64,000 nucleotides of DNA, from NCBI GenBank assembly GCA_017643585.1, contig JAEPND010000006.1:1-64000 (forward strand). Reading direction: 5' to 3'. The notes under the pieces were generated by a model that did no database searches, was not told the DNA's origin, and was given only the letters and a program-made list of their open reading frames with translations. The DNA comes from Maricaulis sp. GTDB taxonomy: Bacteria > Pseudomonadota > Alphaproteobacteria > Caulobacterales > Maricaulaceae. Of the stretch, positions 10,073-28,069 are shown piece by piece. The first letter of the stretch is position 1. Each line of letters starts with the position of its first letter. A program made the translations under genes and the position numbers.

Positions 10073-10159
10073 GCGGTCGTGGCGGAATTGGTAGACGCGC
10101 AGCGTTGAGGTCGCTGTGGGGTAAAACCCGTGGAAGTTCGAGTCTTCTCGACCGCACCA
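10073..10159 (+). tRNA. tRNA-Leu (anticodon GAG)
   Basis: Acceptor stem GCGGTCG (10073-10079) pairs with CGACCGC (10149-10155), followed by discriminator A and an encoded CCA (10157-10159). The anticodon stem CAGCG/CGCTG encloses loop TTGAGGT with anticodon GAG at 10107-10109, reading CUC. A long variable arm is present, as expected for class II tRNA-Leu. Its 3' half is duplicated at 28,018-28,069, showing that it served as integration site; the copy here is complete. Confidence 0.95.
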
Positions 10160-10164
10160 TTTTC
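10113..10164 (+). repeat. attL: 52-bp direct repeat, left end of the island
   Basis: Bases 10113-10164, covering the 3' half of tRNA-Leu plus ATTTTC-type flank, recur exactly at 28,018-28,069. Together with the adjacent integrase this marks the left boundary of an integrated element. Confidence 0.93.
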
Positions 10165-10247: not shown

Positions 10248-11435
10248 ATGAATACCAAACTACCTTACCTCTTCCAAAAGAACGGCGCCTACTTCTTTCG
10301 TAGGCGCGTGCCAGAGCGCTTCCGCGCCCGCGCCGGGTGCCACGAGTGGAAACACCGTCTTGGCCCCTCGGCACGCGATGACGCTTCATTGCTGATGGAA
10401 CTGCGCGTTCTTACGGATGCAACCGATCGAGCGATTGCAGGTCTTGGGAGAGGAGCTGCCCCAGCGCAGGGTTTCCTGCAGGCTGCCTGGGTGGCGCTCT
10501 ATCCTGAATGCGCAGCCGAAGCTGTGCCCACTCTCTCGCAAGCTGCTGAGGTTTATGCGCGTCTGCGCGGCCTTGAGGTCCTGGATAAACCCGAGCAGAT
10601 GGCACTTGATCAGTTCATTGCCTTCATGGGTGATCTTCGGGTCGATGAAATCCAGCGCCGGACGGTGCGCGACTGGATTAGTTGGTTGGGTCAGGAACGC
10701 GGGCAGGGCAGTTCGACAATCAAGCGCCGTCTTTGTTCCGTCTCGGCCTTCTGCACGGCGGTGATAGATCAATATGAACTTGATATCGCCAATCCGTTCT
10801 CCAGGCATCGCGTTCGCACTGGGCCCGTTGGTTATCGAGAGCCATTCACGCGTGATCAGCTTGCGTTGATCAATTCGTGGCTGCTGACCCCATGGGGCGA
10901 TCGGACCAGCGGTTTGATCATCCGCTTTTTGAGAGCCACAGGCGCGAGGCCGCTTGAAATCGGGGGCCTGGCTGTTGCGGATGTGCGCCTCGATCATGAG
11001 CTGCCACACATCTTCATCCGGCCCAACGCGTTCCGGGGGCTGAAGACACCGGGTTCGTCGAGGTTATTACCCTTGGTCAGTGATGCTGTGACAGCAGCGG
11101 AGCGGGCGATCGAGAGAGCAGAAGGGGAGGCGCTCTTCCCCAGCGCTTGTCATGAAACCGGACGATTGTCCGCCAGGCTGAACAAGGCGATCCGATCGGC
11201 AGGTGTTCCCAAGCGTAGAGAGCTGACTGCGTACTCTTTCCGGCACACGGTGCAGGAAGCCATGCGGCTCAGCGGCGCTCCGTTCGATGTTCAACGCGCG
11301 GTGTTGGGGCACGCCAAGACGACAGTGACTGAGCGCTACGGCGCGCGGCAGGTGCCGTTGGAGTTGATGCGAAAGGCGCTGGATCAAGGCCTGCAATCAA
11401 TCACTCATGGAGATGTCACAGCATCACCACGTTGA
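10248..11435 (+). CDS. Tyrosine recombinase/integrase of the island
   Basis: 395-aa site-specific recombinase that would integrate and excise the island at tRNA-Leu. The N-terminal part (about 80-180) is the SAM-like core-binding domain. The catalytic domain shows R234 (TGARPLEIGGL), K266, R332 in YSFRHT, H355 (LGHAKTT) and nucleophile Y364 (TERYGA). The usual first histidine of HxxR is a tyrosine (Y329), a substitution seen in related integrases. It starts 88 bases after the tRNA and reads into the island, the common arrangement for tRNA-targeting integrases. All catalytic residues are present, so it is probably active. Confidence 0.94.
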   Translation: MNTKLPYLFQKNGAYFFRRRVPERFRARAGCHEWKHRLGPSARDDASLLMELRVLTDATDRAIAGLGRGAAPAQGFLQAAWVALYPECAAEAVPTLSQAAEVYARLRGLEVLDKPEQMALDQFIAFMGDLRVDEIQRRTVRDWISWLGQERGQGSSTIKRRLCSVSAFCTAVIDQYELDIANPFSRHRVRTGPVGYREPFTRDQLALINSWLLTPWGDRTSGLIIRFLRATGARPLEIGGLAVADVRLDHELPHIFIRPNAFRGLKTPGSSRLLPLVSDAVTAAERAIERAEGEALFPSACHETGRLSARLNKAIRSAGVPKRRELTAYSFRHTVQEAMRLSGAPFDVQRAVLGHAKTTVTERYGARQVPLELMRKALDQGLQSITHGDVTASPR

Positions 11436-11529
11436 GGGCGCGTCACGTGCTGTGACAGCTTTTGTCATTGGTCGCAGCTATACCGATGGCTTCTGGTCAC
11501 AGACGGCAAACTGTCGTCTTATCAACATC

Positions 11530-11577: not shown

Positions 11578-11608
11578 CCTTAAAGAATAACAAGGGGGCG
11601 ATGCGTCG

Positions 11609-13627
11609 ATGACGCCAACACCAAATAACGTGCAGGGCCTGGCGAACTTTGCCTGGTCTATCGCTGAACTTCTGCGGGGGGACTTCAAGCAGTCCGAATA
11701 CGGCAAGGTGGTGCTTCCCTTCGTGGTGATGCGTCGTCTGGATGCGATCCTGGAGCCGACGAAGGACGATGTTCTCTCGGCAGCGGCGAACCTTCCCCAG
11801 GACATCGATGATGAGACCCTGCGGATGATCCTGCTCGGGGCCGTGGGAAGCGATATCAAGGTCTACAACACCTCGCGCTTCACTTTCACCAAGCTGAAGC
11901 AACAGGACCCCGGTCAACTCCACGAGAACCTGATCGACTATCTGCAGGGCTTCCCTCCTGATGTTCAGGATGTCTTCCTGGAGAAATTCCTCATCACCGA
12001 CCAGCTCAAGCGTCTCAATGATGCCGGGCTGCTCTGGAAGGTGTTTGAACGCTTCACCGAGATCGACCTTCACCCCTCCAAGGTCTCCAACCTGGAGATG
12101 GGCTATCTGTTCGAGGAACTGATCCGCCGCTTCTCGGAGATTTCCAACGAGACCGCTGGTGAACACTTCACTCCGCGTGAAGTCATCCGATTGATCGTCG
12201 ATCTCCTGGTCGAACCGGACAAGGACAAGCTCTCCGGCCTGGGTGTCATCCGTCAGGTTTACGACCCGGCTTGTGGAACCGGAGGTATGCTGGCCCTCAC
12301 TGAGGAGGCCTTGAAAGAGATCAACGCGGACATGCGTGTGGAACTCTTCGGACAGGAGCTAAATGGCGAGTCCTTCGCTATCTGCCGGTCAGACATGTTG
12401 GTGACGGGCCACGACCCCGACCAGATCGCTTATGGCAATACACTCACCCAAGACGCCCACACCTCCCGCAAGTTCCACTACATGATTTCCAACCCGCCCT
12501 ATGGGGTGGACTGGAAGAAGTACAAGGAACCCATCGTCGCTGAGGCGGATGACATGGGCCATGATGGTCGTTTCGGTGCAGGCACACCGCGTGTCTCCGA
12601 TGGCCAGCTTCTCTTCCTCCAGCACATGATTTCCAAGATGCGCCAGGACGAGGCTGGTTCGCGGATTGGGATCGTCATGAATGGATCGCCACTCTTCACG
12701 GGTGGAGCTGGCTCTGGCGAGAGTGAAATCCGGCGTTGGATGCTGGAGAATGACTGGGTTGAGGCGATCATCGCCCTGCCAACCGATCTCTTCTACAACA
12801 CGGGCATCCAGACCTATGTTTGGCTGTTGTCCAATCGCAAGTCTGCGGAACGCCGTGGCAAGGTCCAGCTCATCGACGCCTCAGGCGAAGCCTTTTGGAA
12901 ATCTATGCGTAAATCGCTGGGGTCCAAGCGCCGGGAAATCCCTGATGAAGCCCGCGCGGAGATCGTGCGCAATTACACCCTCTTTGACGCTGCAGACGAC
13001 AAGATCTCCAAGATCTTCCCGCGCGAGGCGTTCGGCTATCGGGAAATCCGGGTCGAACGACCGCTCCAACTCGCTTTTGAGGTGACGGACGAGAAGATCG
13101 AAGCCCTCAAGGCCGAGAAGGCCATCCAGAAGCTGAAGGATGATGAGGTCGGAGCCTTGCTGGCTACATTGGAAGGGCTGCCCAGGGATCATCGCTGGAT
13201 GTCTCGGGATGGCTTAGAGGCCGACTTGCAGAAGGTTCTGAAGGCCTCTGGGATCAAGATCGGAGCGCCTGTGAAGAAGGCTGTCCTCTCTGTTTTCGGA
13301 GAACGCGATGAAGAGGCGGAAGTCTGCCGTGACAAGAAAGGCCAGATGGAAGCCGACAGCGATCTGAGGGACACTGAACTCGTACCTCTGGACGAGAGCT
13401 GGGAGACCTACGTCGAACGCGAGGTGAAGCCCTTCGTGCCGGATGCATGGGTGGACGAGAGTCACAAGGATGACAGCGACGGCGAGGTGGGCCGGGTCGG
13501 CTATGAGATCAACTTCAACCGGTATTTCTACGAGTATGTCCCCCCGAGACCGCTGGAAGAGATCGACGCGGAACTGAAGGCGCTGGAAGCGGAAATCGCC
13601 GGTCTTCTGAAGGAGGTCGCGGCGTGA
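11609..13627 (+). CDS. hsdM: Type I restriction-modification methyltransferase subunit HsdM
   Basis: N6-adenine methyltransferase subunit of a type I system; with HsdS it methylates the recognition site to protect self DNA. The AdoMet-binding motif I DPACGTGGML is near residue 220 and the catalytic motif IV NPPYGVDW near 294. The N-terminal helical domain (FAWSIAELLRG...YGKVVLPFVVMRRLD) is typical. At 672 aa it is longer than classical HsdM, with a charged C-terminal region ending in coiled-coil-like ELKALEAEIAGLLKEV that may hold HsdS. It opens the operon, and its stop overlaps the hsdS GTG start (GTGA). Confidence 0.95.
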   Translation: MTPTPNNVQGLANFAWSIAELLRGDFKQSEYGKVVLPFVVMRRLDAILEPTKDDVLSAAANLPQDIDDETLRMILLGAVGSDIKVYNTSRFTFTKLKQQDPGQLHENLIDYLQGFPPDVQDVFLEKFLITDQLKRLNDAGLLWKVFERFTEIDLHPSKVSNLEMGYLFEELIRRFSEISNETAGEHFTPREVIRLIVDLLVEPDKDKLSGLGVIRQVYDPACGTGGMLALTEEALKEINADMRVELFGQELNGESFAICRSDMLVTGHDPDQIAYGNTLTQDAHTSRKFHYMISNPPYGVDWKKYKEPIVAEADDMGHDGRFGAGTPRVSDGQLLFLQHMISKMRQDEAGSRIGIVMNGSPLFTGGAGSGESEIRRWMLENDWVEAIIALPTDLFYNTGIQTYVWLLSNRKSAERRGKVQLIDASGEAFWKSMRKSLGSKRREIPDEARAEIVRNYTLFDAADDKISKIFPREAFGYREIRVERPLQLAFEVTDEKIEALKAEKAIQKLKDDEVGALLATLEGLPRDHRWMSRDGLEADLQKVLKASGIKIGAPVKKAVLSVFGERDEEAEVCRDKKGQMEADSDLRDTELVPLDESWETYVEREVKPFVPDAWVDESHKDDSDGEVGRVGYEINFNRYFYEYVPPRPLEEIDAELKALEAEIAGLLKEVAA

Positions 13628-14880
13628 GTTTTGCGTCCACAAGGCTAAAACGCGTTGCGCGAGTGGTAGCAGGGCAAGCGCCCAGCTCCGATGCAGTGTC
13701 CGACAACGGTGCGATGCCTTTCATCCAAGGCTGCGCTGAGTTTGGCGCGTCTAATCCTCAGGCCGACAAGTTCTGCGACCATGCGCCGAAGCGCGCGGAC
13801 AAAGGCGACTGGTTGATCTCGGTGCGCGCGCCCGTTGGACGCCTGAACATAGCAGATCAGCGATACGGTATTGGGCGCGGCTTGGCCGCAGTGAAGCCGG
13901 AAAGGATCAATGGACGCTTCCTTGGGTACGCGATCACGCACGCCGCACCGAAGCTCTCAGGCGTCGCCACCGGAAGCACCTACGAGGCAGTGAGCGGAAG
14001 CGATATCGGGAACATGCTGGTCCCGCTCCCCGACCTCGACACCCAGAAGGCTATCGCGGACTTCCTCGACAAGGAAACCGCCCGGATCGACCAGCTGATC
14101 GAGAAGAAGCAGCGCCTGGTGGAGCTATTGGGGGAGCGGGAACTCAACCAAGTTTCCCTATTGGTCTCTGGCCGCGTTGATCATGCAGTCCAGTTGGTCC
14201 CTAGTGGGCTGTCGTGGCTACCTGAAATCCCAGTGCATTGGTCGCGTGAAAAAGGGATGCGGATCGGAGCAATCATTGGTTCCTCACAAGGAGCGGAAGT
14301 CGAAGCAGAAGTTCCAGGAACGATACCATACCTGAAGGTTTCCGACTTGTTGGATTTTGATGGGCGCAAGGTTGAGAGAACTAACTCTAGTCTAGTCCCA
14401 AGCGGCGAGGTGGTGTCTAGAGGCCCTACAATCGTTTTTCCTAAGCGCGGCGCTGCCATCTTCACCAACAAAGCATCGCTAATTGAAGGGAGGTTCGCGC
14501 TCGACCCTAACCTCATGGGATGGAGCATGCGCCCTGGGTTCGCCGCAGAATACTATCTTGCGGTTTTGAAGTGCCGAAGGCTCGATGATTTGGCCGATGT
14601 GTCGACTGTTCCGCAGATCAACAACAAGCACATCTACCCTCAGTGGTTCCCCAAGCCGCCACTCAACGAGCAGCATTCGATAGCTCGGCGCCTTCAAAGC
14701 TTGCAGGGCCCGTTCGCGTCTATACGTAGCAGAATTTTCATCTCTATCGACCGCCTCAAAGAATACCGCTCGGCCCTCATCACAGCTGCCGTCACAGGCC
14801 AGATCGACGTGACCCGCTGGGGCCAGACTGGCGAAGGCGACAAGCGCCTCGATCAGATCCAAGAGGAGATGGCGGGATGA
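13624..14880 (+). CDS. hsdS: Type I restriction-modification specificity subunit HsdS
   Basis: 418-aa DNA-recognition subunit with two target recognition domains (about residues 5-130 and 195-350). Each is followed by a helical conserved spacer: LPDLDTQKAIADFLDKETARI...LVELLGERE, then PPLNEQHSIARRLQSLQG...LKEYRSALITAAVTGQIDV. The first spacer ends in the family-typical FLDKETARIDQLIEKK. It begins with GTG overlapping hsdM by four bases and ends ATGA into the next gene, so expression is coupled. The recognition sequence cannot be predicted from sequence alone. Confidence 0.93.
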   Translation: MSFASTRLKRVARVVAGQAPSSDAVSDNGAMPFIQGCAEFGASNPQADKFCDHAPKRADKGDWLISVRAPVGRLNIADQRYGIGRGLAAVKPERINGRFLGYAITHAAPKLSGVATGSTYEAVSGSDIGNMLVPLPDLDTQKAIADFLDKETARIDQLIEKKQRLVELLGERELNQVSLLVSGRVDHAVQLVPSGLSWLPEIPVHWSREKGMRIGAIIGSSQGAEVEAEVPGTIPYLKVSDLLDFDGRKVERTNSSLVPSGEVVSRGPTIVFPKRGAAIFTNKASLIEGRFALDPNLMGWSMRPGFAAEYYLAVLKCRRLDDLADVSTVPQINNKHIYPQWFPKPPLNEQHSIARRLQSLQGPFASIRSRIFISIDRLKEYRSALITAAVTGQIDVTRWGQTGEGDKRLDQIQEEMAG

Positions 14881-15263
14881 CCTCGTATTCAATCGATGAT
14901 CTTCGACGGACCATCGAGGCGTTCTTCGACGCTCACCCCCAGATCCGGTCCGAGACAACATCGCGGGGTGTCCACCTCCGTGTATTCCGGACGCAGTCGG
15001 GACTGCCCATTGGTCATGAACACCAGCAGACAACGATGCAGGGCATCTGGGTTCGGCGCGATAGTGTAAGGTTGGATCGCCTCAAGCATCTCGACTGGCG
15101 CTTAAAGACAGAGTTGGACCAGCACCGCGCTACAACGGATGGCGTGGTTGGGCGCAACAGCAACCTCGAAAGCGTCGACGGGTTTGCAGGGGATGCGTTG
15201 ATCTACTTCCGCGTCAAAGACCCTGCCGAGTTTAGCACAATTATGGGAGAGCTTCTGGGATGA
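14877..15263 (+). CDS. Unknown 128-aa protein inside the type I R-M operon
   Basis: I do not recognise this protein. It is a mixed alpha/beta chain, rich in Arg, Asp and His, without signal peptide or membrane helix; landmarks are IDDLRRTIEAFFDAHP at the start and DALIYFRVKDPAEFSTIMGELLG at the end. Its ATG overlaps the hsdS stop (ATGA), and its own stop overlaps the next start the same way. It is therefore a true cistron of the operon and probably made in step with HsdS. Its place between hsdS and hsdR suggests an accessory of the restriction complex or a separate two-gene defence module with the next gene. Confidence 0.75.
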   Translation: MTSYSIDDLRRTIEAFFDAHPQIRSETTSRGVHLRVFRTQSGLPIGHEHQQTTMQGIWVRRDSVRLDRLKHLDWRLKTELDQHRATTDGVVGRNSNLESVDGFAGDALIYFRVKDPAEFSTIMGELLG

Positions 15264-15805
15264 AAAAGATCATCGAAAGCCTACCGAACAAAACCCCCGC
15301 TGAACGTTCTGCGATGCGCGAGAATGCTCGCAAGATGGCTGAAAGCGGAGACCCCAAGAAGCTTGAGCAGGCCGAGGCTTTTCTCGCAGCACTGGACGAG
15401 TATGAGGCGGGCCTAGCTGCAGCTGAATATGACCGGCTCTCTTCGCTTGATGATGTAGGGAAAATAAGAGAAGCGTTCGAGCGGGTCCCACCCTCGGACA
15501 CTGAAATAAACCTTATCAAGGTACTCGCGGAAAATCCCGGCGGAACCTCCGGGCAGCTATCAGCCGCGATGGGGTGGAAGGGGTTAACCTGGCATCTGCA
15601 CTTTGGCTACATGGGCAAGGATCGGGAGGCATATCTCTGGCCCGCTCCACCATCTAAGACACGCCGTAAACCGGACGGCGAGCCCGAGAAATTCTACAGC
15701 GGTATGTTTGCAAGTTATGATGCGGAAACGAGCGGGTTCACGTTGAAGCCAGAAGCGCGCGCCGCCTTTGTTGCGCTGGGTTTGATCAAGGGAGAGGCCT
15801 CATGA
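15260..15805 (+). CDS. Unknown 181-aa protein with a possible winged-helix segment
   Basis: Not recognised. The first 85 residues are strongly helical and charged (KTPAERSAMRENARKMAESG, KLEQAEAFLAALDEYEAGLAAAEYDRL), likely coiled coil. Residues 90-120 (DTEINLIKVLAENPGGTSGQLSAAMGWK) look like a helix-turn-helix: a helix, a glycine turn, then SGQLSAAMGW as recognition helix. The C-terminal part has LKPEARAAFVALGLI. The ATG overlaps the previous stop by four bases and the stop overlaps the next ATG. A DNA-binding or sensor role within the defence operon is inference. Confidence 0.72.
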   Translation: MKKIIESLPNKTPAERSAMRENARKMAESGDPKKLEQAEAFLAALDEYEAGLAAAEYDRLSSLDDVGKIREAFERVPPSDTEINLIKVLAENPGGTSGQLSAAMGWKGLTWHLHFGYMGKDREAYLWPAPPSKTRRKPDGEPEKFYSGMFASYDAETSGFTLKPEARAAFVALGLIKGEAS

Positions 15806-16095
15806 CCCGTCTGTGGCTCGTCCGTGCTGGCCGTCAAGGTGAGCGGGAGCGCGATGCTCTGGAAAGCGGACGTGCCATCCTTGGCTTTCTTGAGGTTGGC
15901 GATTTGACCGATAAGGGCGACCGCGAGGCGATCCTCGGCCAGCTTGAGCAGAATATGCCGGAGGCCGGTGAGAACCGACGCCGCAATTTCGCGGCCCAGC
16001 TCAACCAGTTCGTCAATACGATGCAGATTGGCGACCTCGTGGTTCTTCCCCTGAAGATTGCCGAGGGCATCGCAATTGGCGAGGTCACTGGTTAG
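15802..16095 (+). pseudogene. N-terminal half of an EVE-like/Mrr endonuclease, ended by an in-frame amber codon
   Basis: 97 aa running MTRLWLVRAGRQGERE to IAIGEVTG, then TAG at 16093-16095. The same frame continues without other interruption (YRYMDDERTPHSRPIKW...) to 16,851, so the ancestral protein was one chain of about 349 aa. The N-terminal half reads as a PUA/EVE-like domain: NFAAQLNQFVNTMQIGDLVVLPLK and AIGEVTG-YRY, the strand pattern of modified-base readers. The domain call is from pattern, not alignment. The break falls inside this domain, just before its last strands. The element is either a nonsense-mutated gene or one needing amber readthrough. Confidence 0.75.
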
Positions 16096-16104
16096 TACCG
16101 CTAC

Positions 16105-16851
16105 ATGGATGACGAGCGCACACCGCACTCCAGGCCGATCAAGTGGCTAATCGAAAGCACGCCGCGCGACACTTTCAAGCAGGACCTCAGGCATTCCTTC
16201 GGGGCCTTCATGACGGTCTGTGAAATCTCCCGCAACGAGGCTCTCAAGCGGGTCCAGGCGGTGGTTGAGGCCGGGAAGGACCCGGGGCCGACTCTCGGCA
16301 AGACTGGGCAGGTGGTGAGGCAAGTCGTTGCAGACGACAGCACAGAGGCGTCCGAGGTCGAGACTGATATCGAGGACCTGGCAAACCAGCAGATCATCTC
16401 CCTGATCAAGTCCGAGTTCGCCGGGCATGACCTCGCAACGCTTGTCGCTGAAATCCTGGAGGCTGAGGGATACACCACGAAGGTGGCACCACCAGGCCCC
16501 GATGGCGGTCGCGACATTCTCGCAGCGGGTGGCACACTGGGGCTGGGTGAGGACCGTATCTGCGTTGAGGTAAAATCCCATGATGGCCCAGCCAATCAGG
16601 AGGTCGTCCTGAAGCTGCTGGGCGCAGTGCATACCTCGGGTGCGCAAACAGGACTTCTGGTAAGCATCGGCGGTGTGAACGGACCAGCCCGCAACCTGAT
16701 CGACGATAACTTCTTCAAGCTCCGCCTCTGGCAGATGCAGGACCTTCTGAAGGCGCTTTTCCGAAACTATGACCAGCTTTCAGAGACGACACGAGCGAAA
16801 TTGCCAATAAGGCGGATATGGGCGCCGGTGTCTGAAGCAGGGGAAGCCTAA
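16105..16851 (+). CDS. C-terminal Mrr-type restriction endonuclease half, downstream of the amber codon
   Basis: 248 residues from the first ATG after the stop, in the same frame as the preceding half. The Mrr catalytic fold (PD-(D/E)xK) is clear: a helix LVAEILEAEGYTTKVAPPG, D in PDGGRDILA, then E and K in CVEVKSH, followed by VVLKLLGAVHTSGAQTGLLVSIGG. Such enzymes cleave DNA bearing foreign methylation. No ribosome-binding site precedes this ATG, so independent translation would be weak, though reinitiation after the nearby stop is possible. Its stop overlaps the next start as TAATG. The catalytic residues are intact. Confidence 0.78.
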   Translation: MDDERTPHSRPIKWLIESTPRDTFKQDLRHSFGAFMTVCEISRNEALKRVQAVVEAGKDPGPTLGKTGQVVRQVVADDSTEASEVETDIEDLANQQIISLIKSEFAGHDLATLVAEILEAEGYTTKVAPPGPDGGRDILAAGGTLGLGEDRICVEVKSHDGPANQEVVLKLLGAVHTSGAQTGLLVSIGGVNGPARNLIDDNFFKLRLWQMQDLLKALFRNYDQLSETTRAKLPIRRIWAPVSEAGEA

Positions 16852-19800
16852 TGAGCGACGACGAACAAACGCTCGATAAGCATGATGTTTCAACTAGGCC
16901 AAGCCATAAAAAAGGCGGACCTGCGGATGAAGCATCGGACAGGTCCATTGGGGCGAGTGGGATGTCAGACACTGCCGAAGCTGTGTTTGCGTCCCAAGCG
17001 GTCGAAGAGCAGCTTCCCAAAAACACCGCCGCCGCTGTCGATTTTCTGCGTCAAAAGCTACTCGATATCGGCAAGCGCAATCGCTTGATAAATACGCCAC
17101 TGAAGAGCTCACGCGCAAAGCAACTGCGTATCTTCGACGAATTGTCGGACGAGGTTTTTCAGATACTGGTTGGTGACGGAAAGCAGATGTCCTTCCTTCC
17201 AGTCGCTCGGTCAGAGGAAGGTGCCGAAGATGACACAGGGGAGGAAGTTTATGTTCCCCCACCGGACGATGATGTCGGTGAAGATGGTATTGCTTCAAGG
17301 CACACCGACCTTTTTTTGCAAACTAATTACAAGCCCGAACCTCTCCAAAAGCGATTGCTAGGTTTATCGCGAGACGCCAAGACGCTGGAGGAGGAGCAAG
17401 GGGTTAGTGTGCTCTTCCTCGCCCTTGGTTTTCTCAAGTGGTTTGAGAGCGATAGTTCGGATGTCGAGCGATACGCGCCGCTGATTGTTCTCCCGGTCAA
17501 TCTAATACGTGATGACGTTCGAGGCCGGTTCAAGCTGGCGCTCCGAGAAGAGGATTTGCAGGTCAATCTATCGCTGCAGGCCATGCTCGAGTCGGATTTC
17601 GGGCTGTCCCTGCCCGACCTTCCGGAGGAGGAGGGCTGGAAGCCGTCTGAATATTTCGAGAAGGTCACTGACCTCGTTTCTAACAAGAACAAGTGGACTG
17701 TCGAGGCCGATGAAATCGTTCTCGGCTTCTATTCCTTCGCCAAATTCCTGATGTGGCGCGACCTCGATCCGAAGAACTGGCCGGACGGCAAGGGGATCGC
17801 TGGCAATGGGTTGCTGGACAAGTTGTTGGTGGATGGGTTTGAGATCGAAGAGAAAGTTATCTCTGAAGATCAAAACCTGGATGAGGCGTTCCCTGATCCT
17901 GCAGAACTTGGACATATCATGGACGCGGACGCGTCACAGGCCCAGGTGATCGCGGCTGCACGGGCAGGCAAGAACCTTGCCGTGCAGGGGCCGCCAGGGA
18001 CAGGCAAGTCTCAAACCATCGCCAACATTATCGCCACAGCGGTGGCTGATGAAAAGCGTGTGCTGTTTGTGGCGGAGAAGCTAACGGCCCTTACTGTCGT
18101 GCACGACAGACTGGTTGATTGCGGTCTGGCTGATATTTGCCTCGAGCTCCACTCACATAAGGCCAATAAGAAGGCTCTGCTAGAGGAATTGGACAGGACG
18201 CTGAAAGCAGGTCGCCCGAGAGCGGCTGACACGGCGGCGTACAAGGAAGTACGTGAGTATCGTGACGAGCTCAACAAGCTTTCAACGCTTCTGCACGAGC
18301 GTGACAGTCAATCCGAACGCTCACCCTATGAGGTAATCAGTGAGCTGGTTAAGCTGAAGGAGGACGGAGCTGAGACGCCGAGTTTCGAGCTGCCAGATAC
18401 CGCGCAGTGGAGCCGCAACCAAGTTAGTGCTGGTGTGGTCGACGCGAGTGCATTCTCCGAGGCGATTGAGCAATACGGGAAAGTTACGGAACATCCTTGG
18501 CGCGGCGTAACAAAGCGTCTTAGCCCGATGGACCGTGACAGGCTCCGGGAGGAGATCGAGGCAGCGACCGGTGCAGCGGTAACCTTGAGTGACCTGGCAC
18601 GCGAGGCGGCGAAACTATGTGGTTGGGAAGCTCCGCTTACCGCGACCTCATGTGACAGGCTTGTCGCCTGTCTTGAGGCTCTGGACGCGATGCCTGAGGA
18701 GGCACCGGTGTTGACCGGGAATGCCGAAGCCTTGGACGACTTAGATCGGGTTGAGGCCCTCTGTGAGACGATATTTGACCATCGTTCGCAGACCGCCGCT
18801 CTGAGTGCGAAGGTCATCGACAGCGCGTTTGACATGGATTGGGCTGAAGTACGAGGGACGATCGCTGGCCATGGCAACTCAATCCTTCGTTTCTTGAACG
18901 GCAATTACCGCGCTGCCGTTGAAAAGTTGAAGTCTGTTAGCAAAACGACCTTGTCCAATGTTCAAGCAGAGCGCTTGAGTTTGTTAGATGCACTGATCGC
19001 TCAAAAAAAGTCGTCGGAACGACTTGGGCGCGAGAGTGCTTTCGGGAGCTTGGTGTTTTCGTCGAAATGGCGTCAGGAAGAGACAGAGCAGTCGGGTGTT
19101 GCAAAGAGCGTTAAATGGTTGCGCAAGTACCAGGAACGCTTCGATGGGGCCTCGGCCCTGGCTGAAGTCGCGAATGCCGCTGCGGCGCGATCTGAGTTGC
19201 CGAACGACCGGGAACTGGCAGGCGTTTTGCGCGCTTGGCAGGACGCCGTACGTGTAGTGCTGGCGCGCCTGGGACTTGATCTGAAAGTAGCTTTTAACGC
19301 AGCGGAACAGGACGAGATTGTCTTAGATGATTTTCGGTCACGTTTTGATGAATGGCTGTCTGATCCAGAAGGGATCGTAACCTGGTTCCATGTGAGCCAA
19401 GCGGAAGAGCGGTGCCGACAGAAGGGGTTGGGCGAGCTGTGTGACCGAGTGAACTCGGGCCAGCTTTCGCCGGATTGTGTGGTCGGTCAATTCAAGTATG
19501 CCTGGGCGGAGGCACTGTGGAAGCGTCTGATCGACAAGCGTATTGAGCTTAATGACATCGACGGCTCGAAGCGTCATGAGATTGTATCCAAGTTCCGGCG
19601 CCTGGACGACAATCTGAAGGAACTGGCAGCACAAGAGGTCGCGCTTGCCCATCACCAACGAATGCCAAAGGGCGGCGCGGGTGCCATGGGAGTTGTTCGC
19701 TCTGAAATAGCAAAGCGTCGCCGACATATGCCCGTCAGAAAGCTAATGGATCTTGCGGGTGATGCCATTGCTCAGCTGAAACCGGTTTTCATGATGAGTC

Positions 19801-21785
19801 CGCTTTCCGTGTCGCAATACCTGAAACCTGGCAACCTGCGTTTCGATCTGCTCGTGATTGACGAAGCTAGTCAGGTAAAGCCTGAAGACGCGCTCGGAGC
19901 TATTGTTCGTGCCGATCAGATTATTGTTGTCGGTGACCAAAAACAGCTGCCCCCGACCTCATTTTTTGACCGTTCGATGGCTGGTGGCGACGATGCTGAG
20001 CAGTATGATGACGAGCTAGATAGTGAAGAGGCTCTCGCCAGAATAGCGGCACAGCAGGTGTCCAGCATGGAAAGTGTGCTGAGCCTCTGCCATGCGCGTG
20101 ACATGCATGGTGATATTTTGCGATGGCACTATCGATCTCAACACCCTTCGTTGATCGAAGTCTCCAACCATCAATTCTATGATGATCGGCTGATTTATCC
20201 GCCAAGCCCGACCCATGAGGCGCGTGACATTGGGATGATCTTCGAGAAGGTGGACGGCGTTTACGACAGAGGGCGTACTCGTCAGAACCAAATTGAGGCG
20301 AAAGCTATTGCCGAGGCTGTTATTCGGCATGCCCGTGAACATGCGAACTTGTCGCTAGGGGTCGCGACCTTCTCGACTAACCAACGCGACGCGATCCTGA
20401 ATAGCCTTGAGTTTTTGCGTTCTGAAAACCCTGAATTGGAAGCTTTCTTCAGCGAAAATAAGCGCGAGCGGTTTTTTGTGAAAAGCCTGGAAAACGTTCA
20501 GGGCGACGAACGCGACGTCATCTTCGTGTCTGTCGGCTATGGCCGCGACGGAAACGGTTATATGACCCAAGGCTTTGGGCCAGTAACACAAGAGGGTGGC
20601 GAACGGCGCCTAAATGTTCTTTTTACGCGAGCGAAGCGGATCTGCCGCGTTTTCTCCTCCATCACTTACAATGATATTCGTCTCGACGGTGACGTTCCGC
20701 CGGGACGAAAGGCGCTCGCTCGGTTCCTTAAATATGCCGAACTGGGAGACTTGGACATCCCGCAGATTACCGGACAAGGAACCGACAGTCCTTTCGAGGA
20801 TGCCGTCGCGGCAGCGCTAGTCAGGCACGGATATGAAGTCGCAACGCAGGTTGGATCGGCCGGGTTCCGTATTGATTTGGCGATCAGTGATCCAAAACGA
20901 AAAGGTCATTTCGCTCTTGGGATCGAGTGTGATGGGGCCACGTATCACTCGTCTCGTTGGGCTCGGGAGCGAGACCGATTGAGGCAAACGGTTCTGGAAG
21001 CGAAGGGGTGGAGAATTCACCGCATCTGGAGTACCGACTGGTTTGAACAGCCTGAAAAAGAGCTCAACCGACTTCTTGCCGCGGTTGAAGACAGTCTTGC
21101 GGGATCCTCTGGTGTTGCCGCATCGAATTCTCCGGAAAAAGAGAAGGTGCAGATCGAACGTGAACTCGTTCATGAGCCTGAACCGATGGAACGCCAAGTT
21201 TACAAGCAGGCGGACTTTGTGCCTCCGGGCAGCAATTCCCAACCTTTGCACGAGGTCTCGGCTGGCGTTTTAGCCAGTTCAATTCAAAAAATTGTGGAAG
21301 CAGAAGCGCCAATTCATCAGGAAGAGGTTGCACGTCGCCTGAGCTCTCTTTGGGGATACAACAGAACTGGGGCGCGGATACAGGCAGCGGTAGCCCGTGG
21401 CGTTGGTTTGTTGTTGCGTGAACGCAAGCTCGAAACGTGTCCTTTTGAGCCTAGTGATGTTCTTGATACAGCACGGAGCGCCTACGACCTACCAGCATGC
21501 AGAGACAGATCGAATGTCGAGTCTGCGACGCTCCGCAAACCTAAATACATTCCTCTCATTGAGATCGCCTCGGGCCTTGTGCAGGTAGTTGATCTTAACG
21601 CAGCCATTGATGACGATGACGCTGCGCGGGAAGTCGCGAGAATGCTCGGCTTCAAATCAACGAGCCAGGACTTTCGAGATCGTTATACGGAAGCTCGAGA
21701 TATCGCGGCCGATGAGTCCTATTTGATTTTCGAGGCTGGCGCTTTGAGGTCGTCACCCCAAGACCCACGCAAGATAGAAAACTAG
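16851..21785 (+). CDS. DUF4011-helicase-nuclease-DUF3320 defence protein (Hhe type)
   Basis: 1644-aa SF1 helicase-nuclease. The N-terminal DUF4011 region includes FLRQKLLDIGKRNRLINTPL (about 62-85). Walker A GPPGTGKSQTIANII is near 380, and Walker B DLLVIDEASQ with GDQKQLPPT near 1000. Later helicase motifs include WHYRSQHPSLIEVSN and the block from ENVQGDERDVIFVS to RRLNVLFTRAKR. A Vsr/DUF559-like nuclease follows at about 1310-1410 (FRIDLAI...GIECDGATYHSS, ending GWRIHRIWSTDW), then DUF3320 (about 1460-1530). This order is known from a single-gene anti-phage system predicted among bacterial defence islands. It lies inside the type I operon and abuts hsdR with no gap. Target and trigger unknown. 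Confidence 0.9.
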   Translation: MSDDEQTLDKHDVSTRPSHKKGGPADEASDRSIGASGMSDTAEAVFASQAVEEQLPKNTAAAVDFLRQKLLDIGKRNRLINTPLKSSRAKQLRIFDELSDEVFQILVGDGKQMSFLPVARSEEGAEDDTGEEVYVPPPDDDVGEDGIASRHTDLFLQTNYKPEPLQKRLLGLSRDAKTLEEEQGVSVLFLALGFLKWFESDSSDVERYAPLIVLPVNLIRDDVRGRFKLALREEDLQVNLSLQAMLESDFGLSLPDLPEEEGWKPSEYFEKVTDLVSNKNKWTVEADEIVLGFYSFAKFLMWRDLDPKNWPDGKGIAGNGLLDKLLVDGFEIEEKVISEDQNLDEAFPDPAELGHIMDADASQAQVIAAARAGKNLAVQGPPGTGKSQTIANIIATAVADEKRVLFVAEKLTALTVVHDRLVDCGLADICLELHSHKANKKALLEELDRTLKAGRPRAADTAAYKEVREYRDELNKLSTLLHERDSQSERSPYEVISELVKLKEDGAETPSFELPDTAQWSRNQVSAGVVDASAFSEAIEQYGKVTEHPWRGVTKRLSPMDRDRLREEIEAATGAAVTLSDLAREAAKLCGWEAPLTATSCDRLVACLEALDAMPEEAPVLTGNAEALDDLDRVEALCETIFDHRSQTAALSAKVIDSAFDMDWAEVRGTIAGHGNSILRFLNGNYRAAVEKLKSVSKTTLSNVQAERLSLLDALIAQKKSSERLGRESAFGSLVFSSKWRQEETEQSGVAKSVKWLRKYQERFDGASALAEVANAAAARSELPNDRELAGVLRAWQDAVRVVLARLGLDLKVAFNAAEQDEIVLDDFRSRFDEWLSDPEGIVTWFHVSQAEERCRQKGLGELCDRVNSGQLSPDCVVGQFKYAWAEALWKRLIDKRIELNDIDGSKRHEIVSKFRRLDDNLKELAAQEVALAHHQRMPKGGAGAMGVVRSEIAKRRRHMPVRKLMDLAGDAIAQLKPVFMMSPLSVSQYLKPGNLRFDLLVIDEASQVKPEDALGAIVRADQIIVVGDQKQLPPTSFFDRSMAGGDDAEQYDDELDSEEALARIAAQQVSSMESVLSLCHARDMHGDILRWHYRSQHPSLIEVSNHQFYDDRLIYPPSPTHEARDIGMIFEKVDGVYDRGRTRQNQIEAKAIAEAVIRHAREHANLSLGVATFSTNQRDAILNSLEFLRSENPELEAFFSENKRERFFVKSLENVQGDERDVIFVSVGYGRDGNGYMTQGFGPVTQEGGERRLNVLFTRAKRICRVFSSITYNDIRLDGDVPPGRKALARFLKYAELGDLDIPQITGQGTDSPFEDAVAAALVRHGYEVATQVGSAGFRIDLAISDPKRKGHFALGIECDGATYHSSRWARERDRLRQTVLEAKGWRIHRIWSTDWFEQPEKELNRLLAAVEDSLAGSSGVAASNSPEKEKVQIERELVHEPEPMERQVYKQADFVPPGSNSQPLHEVSAGVLASSIQKIVEAEAPIHQEEVARRLSSLWGYNRTGARIQAAVARGVGLLLRERKLETCPFEPSDVLDTARSAYDLPACRDRSNVESATLRKPKYIPLIEIASGLVQVVDLNAAIDDDDAAREVARMLGFKSTSQDFRDRYTEARDIAADESYLIFEAGALRSSPQDPRKIEN

Positions 21786-24767
21786 ATGCCGAATATTGCA
21801 CTTGCTTCACTCCACCGCGAGATCGCCGTCCAGGAACACTTCGTTCAGCAACTGGTCGCAGAACAAGGCTATCGCGAACGTCGCCCTGAAGACCACGACA
21901 AGCCTCTGGCCCTCGACGTCGAACTGGTCTGCGAGTTTCTGAAGGCTTCCCAGCCGGAAGCTTGGAAAGCTCTTGAAGCCCAATACCCAGGCTCCGCCCA
22001 ACGCACCGTCATCGACCAGCTCTCCAAGATGCTGAAACGGGTCGGGACACTGGAAGTCCTGCGCCAGGGCATCAAGCTGGTTCCGAACATCAAATTCCAG
22101 CTGTGTGCTTTCAAGCCTGCCTCGTCGATCAACTGGGACCTGGTGCGGCTCTATGAGGCCAACATCCTCTCGGTGATCCAGGAAGTCGAATATTCGACCA
22201 AGAACGGTAACCGGATCGACACAGTCCTCTATGTGAACGGCATCCCGGTCGCGACATGCGAATTCAAGAACACGCTGACGGGGTCGAACTACAAGACAGC
22301 CGAGAAGCAATATAAGAAGGATCGTTCTCCGGCTGGGGAACCCCTTCTGACGTTCAAGCGAGGCGCACTCGTCCACTTCGCGCTGGACCAGGACTATGTC
22401 TCCATGGCGACCCGCCTGGCCAACGGGAAGACATTCTTCCTGCCTTTCAACCGAGGCCGTGATGGGGGAGGCGGGAACCCCGATGTGAAACTGGAAGATG
22501 GGACGGACGAGTTCCGTATCGCCTATCTCTATCGGGATCTTCCGAACGGCCGGGCGATCTTCTCACGGGAAGTCCTGCTCGACATCATTGGTCGCTTCAT
22601 CCACCTCAACGAAGACGGTGTGATGATCTTCCCGCGCTTCCAGCAACTCGATGCTGTACGCAAGCTAATGGCCCATGCTCGCGATCACGGGAGTGGACAG
22701 AACTACCTGATCCAGCACTCTGCTGGCTCCGGCAAGTCGAACACTATCGGCTGGACGGCCCACCAGGCGATCAAGCTGCACACCGAGAGCGACCAGTCGG
22801 TCTTCGATACAGCGATCATTTTGACCGACCGGCGAGTCCTGGACAGGCAACTTCAGAAAACTCTCACGGAACTGGAACAGACGCCTGGTGTGGTGCGGGC
22901 TATCGATGGCACCTCACGCCAACTCAAGGAGGCTCTGGAAGCTGGAGCGAAGATCATTGTCTCCACCATCCAGAAGTTCAGCACCGAGCATCTCACTGCC
23001 ATTTCGGCCCAGGCTCACAAGCAGTTCGCTGTGATCATGGATGAAGCCCACAGTTCACAATCGGGCAAGGCTGCGGAAGCTGTCTCCAAGGCACTCACAG
23101 CCAAGGAGGTCGATGAGGACGAGCGCTCTGCAGAGGACATCATCCTCGCGTTCCAGAACGAGCGGGGACCACAGGCCAACATCTCCTACTTTGCGTTCAC
23201 GGCGACACCCAGAAATGTCACGCTGGAGCGCTTCGGTGTGACTGGCGAAGACGGAAAGCCGCATCCTTTCCATCTCTACTCCATGCGGCAGGCCATCGAG
23301 GAAGGTTTCATCCTTGATGTGCTGAAGAACTATTCGACCTACCAGGCCTATTACGAGCTGGAAAAGACCATTGAGGATGACCCGCGCTTCGAAGGATCCA
23401 AAGCCCAGCGCAAGGTCGCCAAGTTTGCCCACCTTCATGACGATGCCATAGATCAGAAGGTCGAGGTGATGGTTGAACATTTCCGTCGCCATGTGATGCA
23501 GGAACTCGGTGGTGAAGCCAAGGCCATGGTGGTCACAGCCAGCCGGGATGCTGCTCTTAAGTATTTCCGTGGCGTAGAGCGCTATCTGGCGTCAAAGAAC
23601 TATGATGACCTGGGGGTTCTGGTGGCTTTCTCCGGGGCTTTGCCGGATGGAGCAGGCGGCGAGATCACTGAGCCGGAACTCAATGGCTTTGCCGAGACAG
23701 AACTGCCCAAGAAGTTCGATGGGTCTGACTATCACCTGCTCATCGTGGCAGAGAAATACCAGACCGGCTTTGACCAGCCTAAGCTGTGCGCCATGTATGT
23801 CGACCGCAAGCTGGCGGGGCTTCAGGCCGTACAGACCTTGTCCAGGCTCAACAGGACCAAGCGGGGCAAGGAGCGTACCTTCGTCCTCGACTTCCAGAAC
23901 TCCATCGAGGACATCCAGGAAGCCTTCAAGCCCTTCTTTGAGACTACGACGCTGGAAGAACGCTCCGACCCGAACCAGATCTACGAGCTTGAGCAGAAGA
24001 TCATCGGTTATGGCTTCATCGACCGCGCTGAGATCGACCGCTTCTGCGAGATCTTCTTTAGGGAGGAGGGGGTGACGACAGCTGACCGCCCAGCCCTCGA
24101 GGCCATTGTCCGTAATGCAGTCGACAGATGGCAGGCTGAAGATGATGAAGGACGTCGCGAGGAGTTTCGTCAGCTCCTCAAGAGTTATCAGCGCTTCTAC
24201 GTATTCCTGGCCCAAATCATGACCCTTGGGGACACCTGGCTGGAGAAGCTCTACGTCTACGCCTCTTGGGTTGACCGGAAGCTCCCAGACCGAGAGCAGC
24301 CCGAGGACCCGGACATCACCGATGACATGCTCCGTCTGACGGCCTTTAAAGTGGAACACAAAGCCGAAGGGTCAGCTTCCCTTCACGCTGGGGAAACTAC
24401 AGAGCTGAAGCCCATCAGCGAGTTTGCTGCCAAGCCCTTTACGGAGAAGGAAGCCAAGACCCTCCAAGAGATCATCGATGCCTTTAACGAGCGGCATGGG
24501 ACGAAGTTTTCCGAAGCGGATTATCTTCGCTTCTTCGCGGCCTCCGAGAAGGTCATGGAAGACCCGAATATGCAGGCGACCTTGAAGAACAATCCGCCTG
24601 ATGTTTCCAGAGGGTCATTCGAGAAGGCTGTCTACCCGGAGATCATCCAGGCCTTCCAGCGTGATCGAGAGATGTCGAATATTATCCTGACCGACGGAGA
24701 AGCACGAGCGAAGGTCTTCGATCTTCTTTTCTCGATGGCTTTGAGGCAGGTGAAGGAAACCGCTTAG
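21786..24767 (+). CDS. hsdR: Type I restriction endonuclease subunit HsdR
   Basis: 993-aa motor and nuclease subunit. The N-terminal PD-(D/E)xK nuclease has D145 (NRIDTVLYVNG) and E159/K161 (CEFKN). SF2 translocase motifs follow: Walker A HSAGSGKSNT near 312, DEAH box VIMDEAHSSQSG, motif III YFAFTATPRNVTLERFG and motif VI LQAVQTLSRLNRTKRGK. The C-terminal helical domain would bind the HsdM/HsdS core. All key residues are present, so the type I system looks complete and active. It directly follows the helicase gene stop, ending the coupled operon, and is separated from hsdM/hsdS by about 6.9 kb of other genes. Confidence 0.95.
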   Translation: MPNIALASLHREIAVQEHFVQQLVAEQGYRERRPEDHDKPLALDVELVCEFLKASQPEAWKALEAQYPGSAQRTVIDQLSKMLKRVGTLEVLRQGIKLVPNIKFQLCAFKPASSINWDLVRLYEANILSVIQEVEYSTKNGNRIDTVLYVNGIPVATCEFKNTLTGSNYKTAEKQYKKDRSPAGEPLLTFKRGALVHFALDQDYVSMATRLANGKTFFLPFNRGRDGGGGNPDVKLEDGTDEFRIAYLYRDLPNGRAIFSREVLLDIIGRFIHLNEDGVMIFPRFQQLDAVRKLMAHARDHGSGQNYLIQHSAGSGKSNTIGWTAHQAIKLHTESDQSVFDTAIILTDRRVLDRQLQKTLTELEQTPGVVRAIDGTSRQLKEALEAGAKIIVSTIQKFSTEHLTAISAQAHKQFAVIMDEAHSSQSGKAAEAVSKALTAKEVDEDERSAEDIILAFQNERGPQANISYFAFTATPRNVTLERFGVTGEDGKPHPFHLYSMRQAIEEGFILDVLKNYSTYQAYYELEKTIEDDPRFEGSKAQRKVAKFAHLHDDAIDQKVEVMVEHFRRHVMQELGGEAKAMVVTASRDAALKYFRGVERYLASKNYDDLGVLVAFSGALPDGAGGEITEPELNGFAETELPKKFDGSDYHLLIVAEKYQTGFDQPKLCAMYVDRKLAGLQAVQTLSRLNRTKRGKERTFVLDFQNSIEDIQEAFKPFFETTTLEERSDPNQIYELEQKIIGYGFIDRAEIDRFCEIFFREEGVTTADRPALEAIVRNAVDRWQAEDDEGRREEFRQLLKSYQRFYVFLAQIMTLGDTWLEKLYVYASWVDRKLPDREQPEDPDITDDMLRLTAFKVEHKAEGSASLHAGETTELKPISEFAAKPFTEKEAKTLQEIIDAFNERHGTKFSEADYLRFFAASEKVMEDPNMQATLKNNPPDVSRGSFEKAVYPEIIQAFQRDREMSNIILTDGEARAKVFDLLFSMALRQVKETA

Positions 24768-24792
24768 TAGATAGCGGTGGGACGTTGACGAC

Positions 24793-24847: not shown

Positions 24848-24849
24848 TC

Positions 24850-24863: not shown

Positions 24864-24969
24864 CAAATGGCGCGTCTTGCCTGTTCCAATACTCGGAATT
24901 GTGCGGCTAATAGGTGGCTCCCACCAACCAAGAGGGGCTGCGGCTCCTCAGATATTTGTCGGAGCTAAA

Positions 24970-27327
24970 ATGCAAATTCAGTCCAATCCAGTCCCTAATG
25001 TTGGGGGCGGTAAGCGCTGCGTCACCGAAATGGACAGCGAGTACTTTTTTGAGCTTTATGAACCGTTCGCAGGTCGAGGCTACCTCGCGGTCAGCGAGCT
25101 CGACGAGAGCAAACCACCTCGAACGCGTTGGTTCTCAACTGCTGACCTCAAATCAGCGTATGATCACATGCTCGAGTGCGCTCGTAATCGTCAGGTTTAT
25201 CATAGTTGGGGCGTGTATGCGGGCATTCCGGCGTCGGGGCGAGGGCGCGGTTCTGATATCCTTGGGCTGCCGGGTATTTTCATAGATGCAGACGTTCTTT
25301 CTCCCGATGAAGGGGTTCATGCGCAGAAGAAATTGCCGGAAACTCAACAACTGTGCCTGGAGTGGCTGAAGCAATCGCAGCTCCCGACCCCAAGCGCTGT
25401 GCGCTCTTCAGGTAACGGTCTCTACTTCGACTGGGTATTCAAGCAGCCGCTGACTTTCGAAACTGAAAAGGAGCGCGCGTCCCTTCACAAGGAAGTGCAG
25501 CGTTTCCATCAAGTCGTTCGAGAACTCGCAAATTCGGACCGCGGTTGGGTCTTTGACAACGTTTCAGATCTTGCGCGAATTACGCGGGCTCCTGGCACTC
25601 AAAATCACAAGACTTGTCCCTCGAAGCCCGTCACAGTTTTGACCTCTTACGACCAGCTGCGAGACAACAAATATGACCTCGATGAATTGATGTTGGAGGT
25701 CGAGCCTCTTGTGAAGAAAGACGACGCCGAGCTTAAAGAAACGAAGCAGCTCGAACTCGAAGAGCCAGTGGATTTCGGTGGCGTGAAGCGCGCGAATTTT
25801 GTGGCTATCGAGAAGGGATGTGGCGCTGTTTCGAAATGGGTGAGAAATCCGCAGGAGCAGAGCTACGAAGACTGGCTGGCCCTCCTCCGTGTGCTTTCTC
25901 GCTGTGAGCGCGGTGAGGATCTCGCGCATAAAATTTCTCGCAACGACGCTCGCCGCTATGACCCGTCTGAGACCAGCAAGAAATATGAGGAGGCCACAAA
26001 GAGTATGTCGCCTCCGACGTGCGGATATATCTCAAGTGAACTTGGGGAAGCCGCGTGTAATGATTGTCCAATGAAAGGTACAATTCATAGTCCGATGTCT
26101 CTTGGGTATATGGATCCCCAGGTCGCGGGGTTGCACGGCGAGTTTGTTCTCGACGTTGTTACTTCAAAATGCGTCTCGATGAAAACCGGGCAAGCCTATT
26201 CCGAGAAGGGGTTCAACAATCGTTTCAATCATCTAGTTGATAAGGGAAACGTGCATAACGAGCTCGTGCGATCGAAGAAGGCTGGAAAGGTCGAGATGAT
26301 CGACTACCAGCCCGGTGTGGATGATCGTCTGATCAAGACAGAGGCGGGACAGGTTTTTAATTCCTGGCGCGACGGGGGCGTGGAGCCGGTCGAAGGCGAT
26401 TGCTCAACAATTCTCTCTCATCTTGAGAAGCTCACGAACAATCGAGCGGAATTCGATCACATTTTGCGCTATCAGGCCGAGCTGCTGCAAAATGGCGCGT
26501 CAAAAATCTTGCACTGTCTCCTGATCACCAGCAATCAGGGCGTAGGAAAAAGCGTGTTGATCGATATTTGGCGTAACATGATCGGCAGCGACAACGTCCA
26601 CGATGTGCCCCCGGACCAAGCTAATACCAAGTATCGTGCGAGCTGGGCAAATAATCAGATCCTTTTCTTCGAGGAACTTCGTGTTGGAAACAAGGGCGCG
26701 GAGTTTAGCAACGAATTGAAGCCCTGGATTACTCAAGAATTTATCGAGGTTGAAGAAAAGCATATCGCAGTCTCCTCCGCACGAACTCCGCGCGGCATGT
26801 TCGCGTTTTCCAATTTCCGCTCGCCACTCGAAATTTCGAAAGATGACCGCCGTTACTACGTAGTGCATTCTAAGATGCAAAAGCGCGAGCCGGAGTATTA
26901 TGAAAAGCTTTGGATTGCAGTCCACAGCGAGGCAGCTGCCTTCAAGCACTTTCTGTTGAACCTGGATACTTCAGGGTTTAATCCGAAAGGCCCTCCGCCG
27001 GTAACTGAGTCGAAGTTGGAGATGCTCGAAAACGCACGTCCGGCGTTGGAGCTCGAATTGGAACGACTTATCGCGACCAAGCGGGGGTGCTTCGCGAAGG
27101 ATCTGGTTACTCGTGATCAAATCCATGATGCGCTCTCAATCTCGATGCTCGGTAACTGGCAATACAGAGAGTTGACTGAAGCAATTCACGCTGTTGGTCT
27201 GGTGCGTCGCGACACGCAGATTGCGCTTTCTGATGGTTCGCGTCCTCGATTATGGATTGTACGAAACATTGACAGCTGGGGTTCTGCGACTCCGCAAAGA
27301 ATAAGAGAGCACCTCGGTGATCATTAA
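24970..27327 (+). CDS. Primase-polymerase / SF3 helicase of the island
   Basis: 785 aa, expected to start and unwind replication of the excised element. The N-terminal archaeo-eukaryotic primase-like domain shows GIFIDADV near 102, RSSGNGLYFDWVF, and SDLARITRAPGTQNHKT. A cysteine cluster CGYISSELGEAACNDCPMKG near 350 probably binds zinc or Fe-S. The C-terminal DUF5906-like helicase carries Walker A SNQGVGKSVLID near 520, Walker B ILFFEEL near 565, and FSNFRSPLEISKDDRRYYV. The ATG at 24970 is chosen for the GGAG five bases upstream; a TTG 31 codons earlier adds no conserved sequence. More A/T-rich than the core genes. A terminator follows. Confidence 0.87.
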   Translation: MQIQSNPVPNVGGGKRCVTEMDSEYFFELYEPFAGRGYLAVSELDESKPPRTRWFSTADLKSAYDHMLECARNRQVYHSWGVYAGIPASGRGRGSDILGLPGIFIDADVLSPDEGVHAQKKLPETQQLCLEWLKQSQLPTPSAVRSSGNGLYFDWVFKQPLTFETEKERASLHKEVQRFHQVVRELANSDRGWVFDNVSDLARITRAPGTQNHKTCPSKPVTVLTSYDQLRDNKYDLDELMLEVEPLVKKDDAELKETKQLELEEPVDFGGVKRANFVAIEKGCGAVSKWVRNPQEQSYEDWLALLRVLSRCERGEDLAHKISRNDARRYDPSETSKKYEEATKSMSPPTCGYISSELGEAACNDCPMKGTIHSPMSLGYMDPQVAGLHGEFVLDVVTSKCVSMKTGQAYSEKGFNNRFNHLVDKGNVHNELVRSKKAGKVEMIDYQPGVDDRLIKTEAGQVFNSWRDGGVEPVEGDCSTILSHLEKLTNNRAEFDHILRYQAELLQNGASKILHCLLITSNQGVGKSVLIDIWRNMIGSDNVHDVPPDQANTKYRASWANNQILFFEELRVGNKGAEFSNELKPWITQEFIEVEEKHIAVSSARTPRGMFAFSNFRSPLEISKDDRRYYVVHSKMQKREPEYYEKLWIAVHSEAAAFKHFLLNLDTSGFNPKGPPPVTESKLEMLENARPALELELERLIATKRGCFAKDLVTRDQIHDALSISMLGNWQYRELTEAIHAVGLVRRDTQIALSDGSRPRLWIVRNIDSWGSATPQRIREHLGDH

Positions 27328-27330
27328 TCA

Positions 27331-27945: not shown

Positions 27946-28017
27946 AGAGTGCTTGGAGAGCGTGATCTGAGCCGTTTTTCCAGGTGCTAAAGTCCTGAGA
28001 ACACCAGACAGGAGCTA

Positions 28018-28069
28018 GCTGTGGGGTAAAACCCGTGGAAGTTCGAGTCTTCTCGACCGCACCATTTTC
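28018..28069 (+). repeat. attR: 52-bp direct repeat, right end of the island
   Basis: Exact copy of 10113-10164, containing the 3' part of tRNA-Leu (from the end of the anticodon stem through CCA) but no 5' half, so it is not a functional tRNA. It marks the right boundary of the island. Confidence 0.93.

Follow-up and report, generated by a model that had tools for sequence, protein, structure and literature searches.

A Maricaulis type I restriction-modification operon on an integrative element, with probably interchangeable defence genes between hsdS and hsdR

A published operon carries DarTG2 between hsdS and hsdR; in the same report, another gene pair takes the DarTG2 position in four genomes and the site is called a potential recombination hotspot (PMC12255303). 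The PDC candidate families of PADLOC are described as having been found by "guilt-by-embedding" (PMC12988326). Among single proteins, the anti-phage proteins Hhe and ProA (NCBIfam) share a domain family, with long matches, with the helicase-nuclease of the locus studied here, although the latter falls below the curated cut-offs of both.

Here, we describe a locus in a stretch of 64,000 nucleotides of Maricaulis DNA (the whole stretch is called the window), where a type I restriction-modification (R-M) operon holds candidate defence genes between hsdS and hsdR. The reading that we prefer, with a probability of about 0.82, is that of co-expressed, interchangeable defence modules in a type I R-M operon on an integrative element.

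The operon and its integrative element

The operon is the cargo of an element of about 17.9 kb (10165-28069) in the tRNA-Leu(GAG) gene of Maricaulis. Its anatomy, observed directly, is as follows.

10073..10159, + strand: tRNA-Leu (GAG), the attachment gene (ARAGORN; Rfam tRNA)
10107..10164, + strand: 58-bp attachment repeat, left copy (direct repeat; 97% identity with the copy at 28012-28069)
10248..11435, + strand: tyrosine-type integrase (Phage_integrase 4.7e-13; phrog_1 integrase)
11609..13627, + strand: hsdM, type I methyltransferase (HsdM_N/N6_Mtase domains; DPACGTG and NPPY motifs)
13624..14880, + strand: hsdS, specificity subunit, GTG start (Methylase_S 3.2e-20; Specificity_I)
14877..15263, + strand: orf128 (family match absent; likeness to the N-terminal region of the HNH protein of the Henriciella marina slot)
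15260..15805, + strand: orf181, small protein, family unknown (among 385 genomes searched, 4 others have a homologue, as does one viral contig)
15802..16095, + strand: mrr (PDC-S02), 5' part, 97 aa (terminates at an in-frame TAG)
16105..16851, + strand: mrr (PDC-S02), 3' part, 248 aa (complete Mrr_cat domain, D...EVK motif)
16851..21785, + strand: helicase-nuclease, 1644 aa, PDC-S37-like, relative of Hhe and ProA (DUF4011/AAA_11/AAA_12/MTES_1575/DUF3320)
21786..24767, + strand: hsdR (HSDR_N/SWI2_SNF2; D...EFK nuclease motif, GSGKS, DEAH)
24877..27327, + strand: primase-like protein (DUF5906; TTG start uncertain; phrog_1156 DNA primase 1.5e-22)
27403..27777, + strand: small excisionase- or regulator-like protein, weak match (phrog_66 1.5e-5)
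28012..28069, + strand: right copy of the attachment repeat, element end (the empty site in G188 joins 10164 to 28070)

HsdM, HsdS and HsdR have the methylase, specificity and nuclease-motor domains of a type I R-M system, and by gene order the genes of candidate systems sit between the genes of this other system. The expected catalytic motifs are retained in HsdM, HsdR and Mrr, as is GPPGTGKS in the helicase-nuclease, and we take these motifs to have catalytic roles. The gene order and the six tight junctions claimed by the sequence-only reading were confirmed on the open frames and on the junction letters, which from hsdM to hsdR are GTGA, ATGA, ATGA, ATGA, TAATG and direct contact. It had also counted seven cistrons; the order stands, and the count becomes eight open frames because of a TAG in the Mrr frame. 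Over the operon, promoter-like patterns (4, against a shuffle mean of 5.0) and terminator-like patterns (14, against 13.0) showed no excess and are therefore uninformative, and direct repeats in 13500-22000 comprised nothing beyond chance-like copies of 17-33 nt.

The borders of the element and its empty site were likewise observed directly. The 58-bp repeat is a repeat of the tRNA-Leu end, and the relative G188 has the exact empty site, with window 9001-10164 corresponding to C4 390236-391399 (96%) and window 28070-28149 to C4 390156-390235 (94%), the two flanks being contiguous at 390236/390235. With an integrase, an attachment repeat and an empty site, this is a tRNA-targeting integrative element. 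GC content is 51-59% over 10-32 kb, with its minimum inside the element, as compared to 60-64% in the preceding 10 kb. The kinds of genes present (integrase, primase and, by a weak match, an excisionase-like gene) appear to match those of P4-like phage satellites; viral scans with the primase-like gene found no relative. Next to the element, a 70-bp direct repeat (91%) lies at 29294-29363 and 33237-33306, its second copy running across the point where MgtE begins (33248), which suggests a duplicated MgtE gene start and further rearrangement adjoining the element.

The slot between hsdS and hsdR in related loci

When 84,980 genomes were scanned by pattern with an HsdR alignment, 19 loci emerged, six of them near-identical over 10 kb. 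The 17 distinct loci that we compared comprise the genome-scan loci, the window, one viral-contig locus and one plasmid locus, no other of the 750 plasmid records matched by HsdR reaching 60% identity. HsdR relatives were thus drawn from two collections, scanned by pattern, and from one plasmid match, and in this partial sample the slot is empty at 4 of 17 loci (L064, L074, L077 and L121) and loaded at 13, window included. As far as comparison of sequences can carry it, this variety supports the earlier description of type I R-M genes set apart by a defence cassette placed between them. In the empty slots, hsdS and hsdR overlap at ATGA (L077, L121), stand 3 bases apart (L074), or stand 67 bases apart with hsdS as two frames (L064).

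The variability of the slot was observed directly, and its loads are of at least four unrelated gene kinds. PDC-S02 Mrr occupies five slots (window, L059, L060, L075 and L123) and GmrSD four, recognised by Pfam scan in L066 and the L062 group (scanned in L062) and by sequence similarity to L062 in L061 and L070; the L066 slot additionally has an Abi_C/AbiJ-like gene, and L070 has one of similar sequence. An HNH protein occupies one slot (L073), while three hold other genes, namely small gene pairs in L065 and L067 and a 754-aa protein in L072. The small gene pairs are presumably toxin-antitoxin-like; the L067 slot genes gave no PADLOC match, and the L072 protein gave no Pfam match and weak, HsdS-like PADLOC matches. 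Tight overlaps are not peculiar to the window locus, as ATGA forms a four-base overlap at the left seam of 11 of the 13 loaded loci, the window among them, with L072 and L073 as the exceptions. The loci form a natural series, from an empty slot through one, two and three to four genes, of defence-gene loading into a restriction operon.

Several of these loci have features of their own. Six records, L062, L063, L068, L069, L071 and L076, have in common at 99.96-100% identity a 10-kb stretch comprising an R-M operon with GmrSD and AbiD genes. Their labels are Hyphomonas, Henriciella (2), Ponticaulis and Hyphomonadaceae (2), and either recent transfer or shared contamination would account for the identity. 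L065 has a 126-aa frame (5016-5396) after its slot genes and before hsdR; this frame resembles the HsdS end (profile E 6.1e-11) and is a possible scar of an insertion with duplication of that end. In two IMG/VR contigs (L099 and L102), PDC-S02 Mrr follows hsdR in one and precedes hsdM in the other. The Salipiger abyssi plasmid pPABY8 has the order hsdM-hsdS-PDC-S02-x-y-hsdR with overlapping genes, as in the window, but it is plasmid-borne and neither of its two small genes matches orf128 or orf181 by blastp. After Mrr, its slot (L123:6176-7242) encodes two proteins, one of 174 aa with a weak HEPN-type match and one of 181 aa that matched nothing.

Maricaulis parjimensis DSM 16078 (L044/L059) resembles the window in having a tRNA-Leu, an integrase upstream of the operon and an Mrr gene between hsdS and hsdR. 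It differs in its tRNA-Leu(CAG), its distant Mrr (40%) and a 134-aa gene, and none of orf128, orf181 and the helicase-nuclease was found at its locus. For the INDEPENDENCE of parts, the proteins of the window and M. parjimensis are 94% identical in HsdM and 87% in HsdR, as compared to 40% in the 3' part of Mrr; this same part is 66-68% identical to its counterparts in L060, L075 and L040. A conflict between the trees was observed directly, since HsdR pairs the window with L059 (support 1.0), whereas Mrr groups it with L060, L075 and L040 (0.997). At the DNA level, a 139-bp block 94% similar to M. parjimensis runs to window 14881, one base beyond the hsdS stop, where the similarity breaks off; it resumes at window 21810, 24 bases into hsdR; further upstream, hsdS diverges too, except for a 114-bp block at 98%. 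The slot borders are thereby mapped to the base against a close relative, in a mobile element with a known empty site. This pattern would be consistent with cassette exchange by homologous recombination via the hsdS end.

The same observations bear on the composite machine, one of two options put forward by the sequence-only reading. Spelled out here, the cassette proteins would bind the HsdMS core, whose DNA recognition would direct Mrr and the helicase-nuclease. The tight coupling at every gene speaks for such a machine, as does the recurrence of Mrr, which was seen in 5 of 17 slots and also next to type I operons on two viral contigs. Against it, the order hsdM-hsdS-orf128-orf181-Mrr-Hhe-hsdR, whose conservation the earlier reading had in view, is absent from all other loci examined, the Mrr and HsdR trees conflict, and the Mrr gene of the window is interrupted by a stop. 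Among 200 genomes of the order, own included and with at most two candidates per genome scored for PDC-S37, only the own genome has both PDC-S02 and PDC-S37 at E<=1e-100; at this threshold, PDC-S02 occurs in six other genomes and PDC-S37-type proteins in 16 others. Four of the six other strong PDC-S02 genes (L040, L042, L043 and L045) showed no HsdM, HsdS or HsdR by profile within the 20 kb examined, while the remaining two sit in the hsdS-hsdR slot. With the helicase-nuclease and Mrr each occurring apart from the seven-gene order, the composite machine was set aside as the best reading, and we consider it very unlikely.

The genes of the cassette

The Mrr frame is interrupted by a TAG at 16093-16095, a stop observed directly, and restarts at 16105-16851 (248 aa). 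The PDC-S02 profile match spans 1-343 of 346 across this one TAG, so that it is not a continuous full-profile match; the gene is a PDC-S02 member by descent, interrupted, and it is the one PDC-S02 match in its own genome. In the predicted model of the intact homologue from L060 (mean pLDDT 76, pTM 0.47), the stop corresponds to residue 98, within a strand (90-101) of the N-terminal domain, and Mrr activity would presumably be lost or reduced. Intact copies are present in related loci. Broken PDC-S02 copies are not unique to the window, because a PDC-S02 gene in G024, a genome of the same family as the host (L010, G024:C3:351029-352027), also has in-frame stops (2 TAA).

A sequencing or assembly error, with the operon in fact intact, could have produced the stop. 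Downstream of it the gene is open, 66-68% identical to its nearest relatives and still in possession of the D...EVK active-site motif, as expected for a very recent or a false stop; the TAG is nevertheless present in the assembly, and the G024 gene of the same family likewise has in-frame stops. We hold such an error to be possible, if rather doubtful.

The earlier reading called this nuclease EVE-like, which found no support. Pfam gave just Mrr_cat and a weak, below-cut-off model of a related nuclease in the two pieces, and neither an EVE nor an ASCH structure was among the best 50 of 716 fold matches of the homologue. The intact homologue resembles AspBHI and MspJI in fold (E 2-3e-6, TM 0.30-0.32 by query length, partial), and MspJI we take to be a modification-dependent enzyme. 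By its PDB title, AspBHI is modification-dependent. The likeness is counted as partial because EcoT38I and the RNA polymerase subunit RPB5 are also among the fold matches listed and the TM-scores are low. On this structural model, Mrr is presumably a modification-dependent (type IV) nuclease.

The helicase-nuclease matches PDC-S37 in full length (1752.4 bits over 6-1534 of 1550, for a profile without a curated cut-off), whereas it misses the NCBIfam cut-offs of Hhe (NF042953; 1024.7 against 2000 bits) and ProA (NF058533; 1404.6 against 1500 bits). The previous label "Hhe-type" accordingly named the right domain family, but as a label it is imprecise, PDC-S37 being the best match. Its viral scans found no relative. 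We sampled 26 regions with such genes, from 6 of 16 in the order, 16 of 28 in the class and 4 of 869 plasmid records, and none had HsdM, HsdS, HsdR or Mrr by profiles at E<=1e-8; several of these regions end at contig ends, and L111 and L113, both shorter than 5 kb, consist almost wholly of the gene itself. Because the profiles came from the study loci, a control set was made without the three most divergent loci (L051, L099 and L102); it recovered 7 of the 9 hsd genes there. The two that it missed were an HsdS and an HsdR, so remote hsd genes could escape the profiles.

The least explained part of the locus is orf128 and orf181, which have no family match in four libraries and no plasmid match. 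In a two-sequence comparison with the 456-aa HNH protein that fills the same slot in an R-M operon of Henriciella marina, orf128 showed 33% identity over 85 residues (E 1e-7), aligned with the N-terminal region of the HNH protein. The orf128 alignment matched nothing in viral contigs and its own locus alone among 372 class genomes, and the predicted structure of orf128 was set aside (mean pLDDT 56). For orf181, a search of genome contigs found no relative. The L052 homologue, a weak match in a single-sequence search (E 1.6e-4), is followed 137 bases downstream by an 848-aa protein whose N terminus gives a PDC-S02-type match and which also has nuclease-like and AAA-like matches, the one in L051 adjoins a type I operon on the opposite strand, and those in L083 and L084 had no defence-like neighbour in ORF lists read without a family scan. 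Such likenesses hint weakly at a role of orf128 and orf181 alongside modification-dependent nucleases, which makes the two proteins candidate partners of these enzymes.

From the same evidence, orf128, orf181 and Mrr might form a split modification-dependent nuclease, with the helicase-nuclease as an independent neighbour. This idea draws on the resemblance of orf128 to part of the same-slot HNH protein, on the orf181 homologue upstream of the PDC-S02-type protein in L052 and on the partly AspBHI- and MspJI-like fold of the intact Mrr homologue. However, four of the five loci with Mrr in the slot have no detected orf128 or orf181, the L083 and L084 homologues lack such a neighbour on the ORF-list reading, and the fold resemblance is incomplete (TM 0.32 by query length), with EcoT38I and RPB5 in the same list. 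We regard it as unlikely. Similarly improbable is a wider proposal, namely that the hsdS-hsdR seam is a true cassette-exchange site, where the hsdS end and hsdR serve as recombination arms and ATGA keeps the coupling, and that orf128, orf181 and Mrr arrived there as a previously unrecognised three-part modification-dependent nuclease.

Probably interchangeable modules and known systems

In the preferred reading of interchangeable modules, the seam from the hsdS stop to the hsdR start would act as a cassette slot, where inserted defence genes are presumably translated in line with the R-M genes. Slot genes would be swapped, with hsdM, hsdR and the conserved end of hsdS left in place. The window slot now holds an interrupted PDC-S02 Mrr-type nuclease, a PDC-S37-like helicase-nuclease and two small proteins. 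The parts would most likely act as separate layers: HsdMSR would cut DNA without its methyl mark, Mrr would cut wrongly modified DNA, and the helicase-nuclease would attack foreign DNA by some other route, with all layers switched on together and moved together. The other option of the sequence-only reading, that independent systems were selected for co-expression, is supported, to the extent that sequence comparison allows, by the variety of slots and the conflicting Mrr and HsdR trees. Parts of the cassette may still co-operate, given that Mrr occurs in 5 of 17 slots and orf128 is like part of the HNH protein of another slot.

In our literature search, no paper was recognised as describing the exact seven-gene set; outside that search lie the contents of the Payne et al. 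2024 preprint, in which PDC-S02 and PDC-S37 reportedly originate. Both of these PADLOC families are strongly matched in profile by proteins of the window cassette, with the contrast that the window Mrr is broken by a TAG and that the four libraries gave no match for orf128 or orf181. The DarTG2 operon shares with the window an unrelated defence system between hsdS and hsdR; it differs in the cargo itself and in its RptR regulator, and the two are likened here by slot position (PMC12255303). The earlier suggestion that the arrangement may be undescribed would hold at most for the exact gene set, whereas the principle is on record already (PMC12255303, PMC12988326). Since different genes fill this position in related operons, the window locus looks like a new example of a known embedding pattern rather than a new machine.
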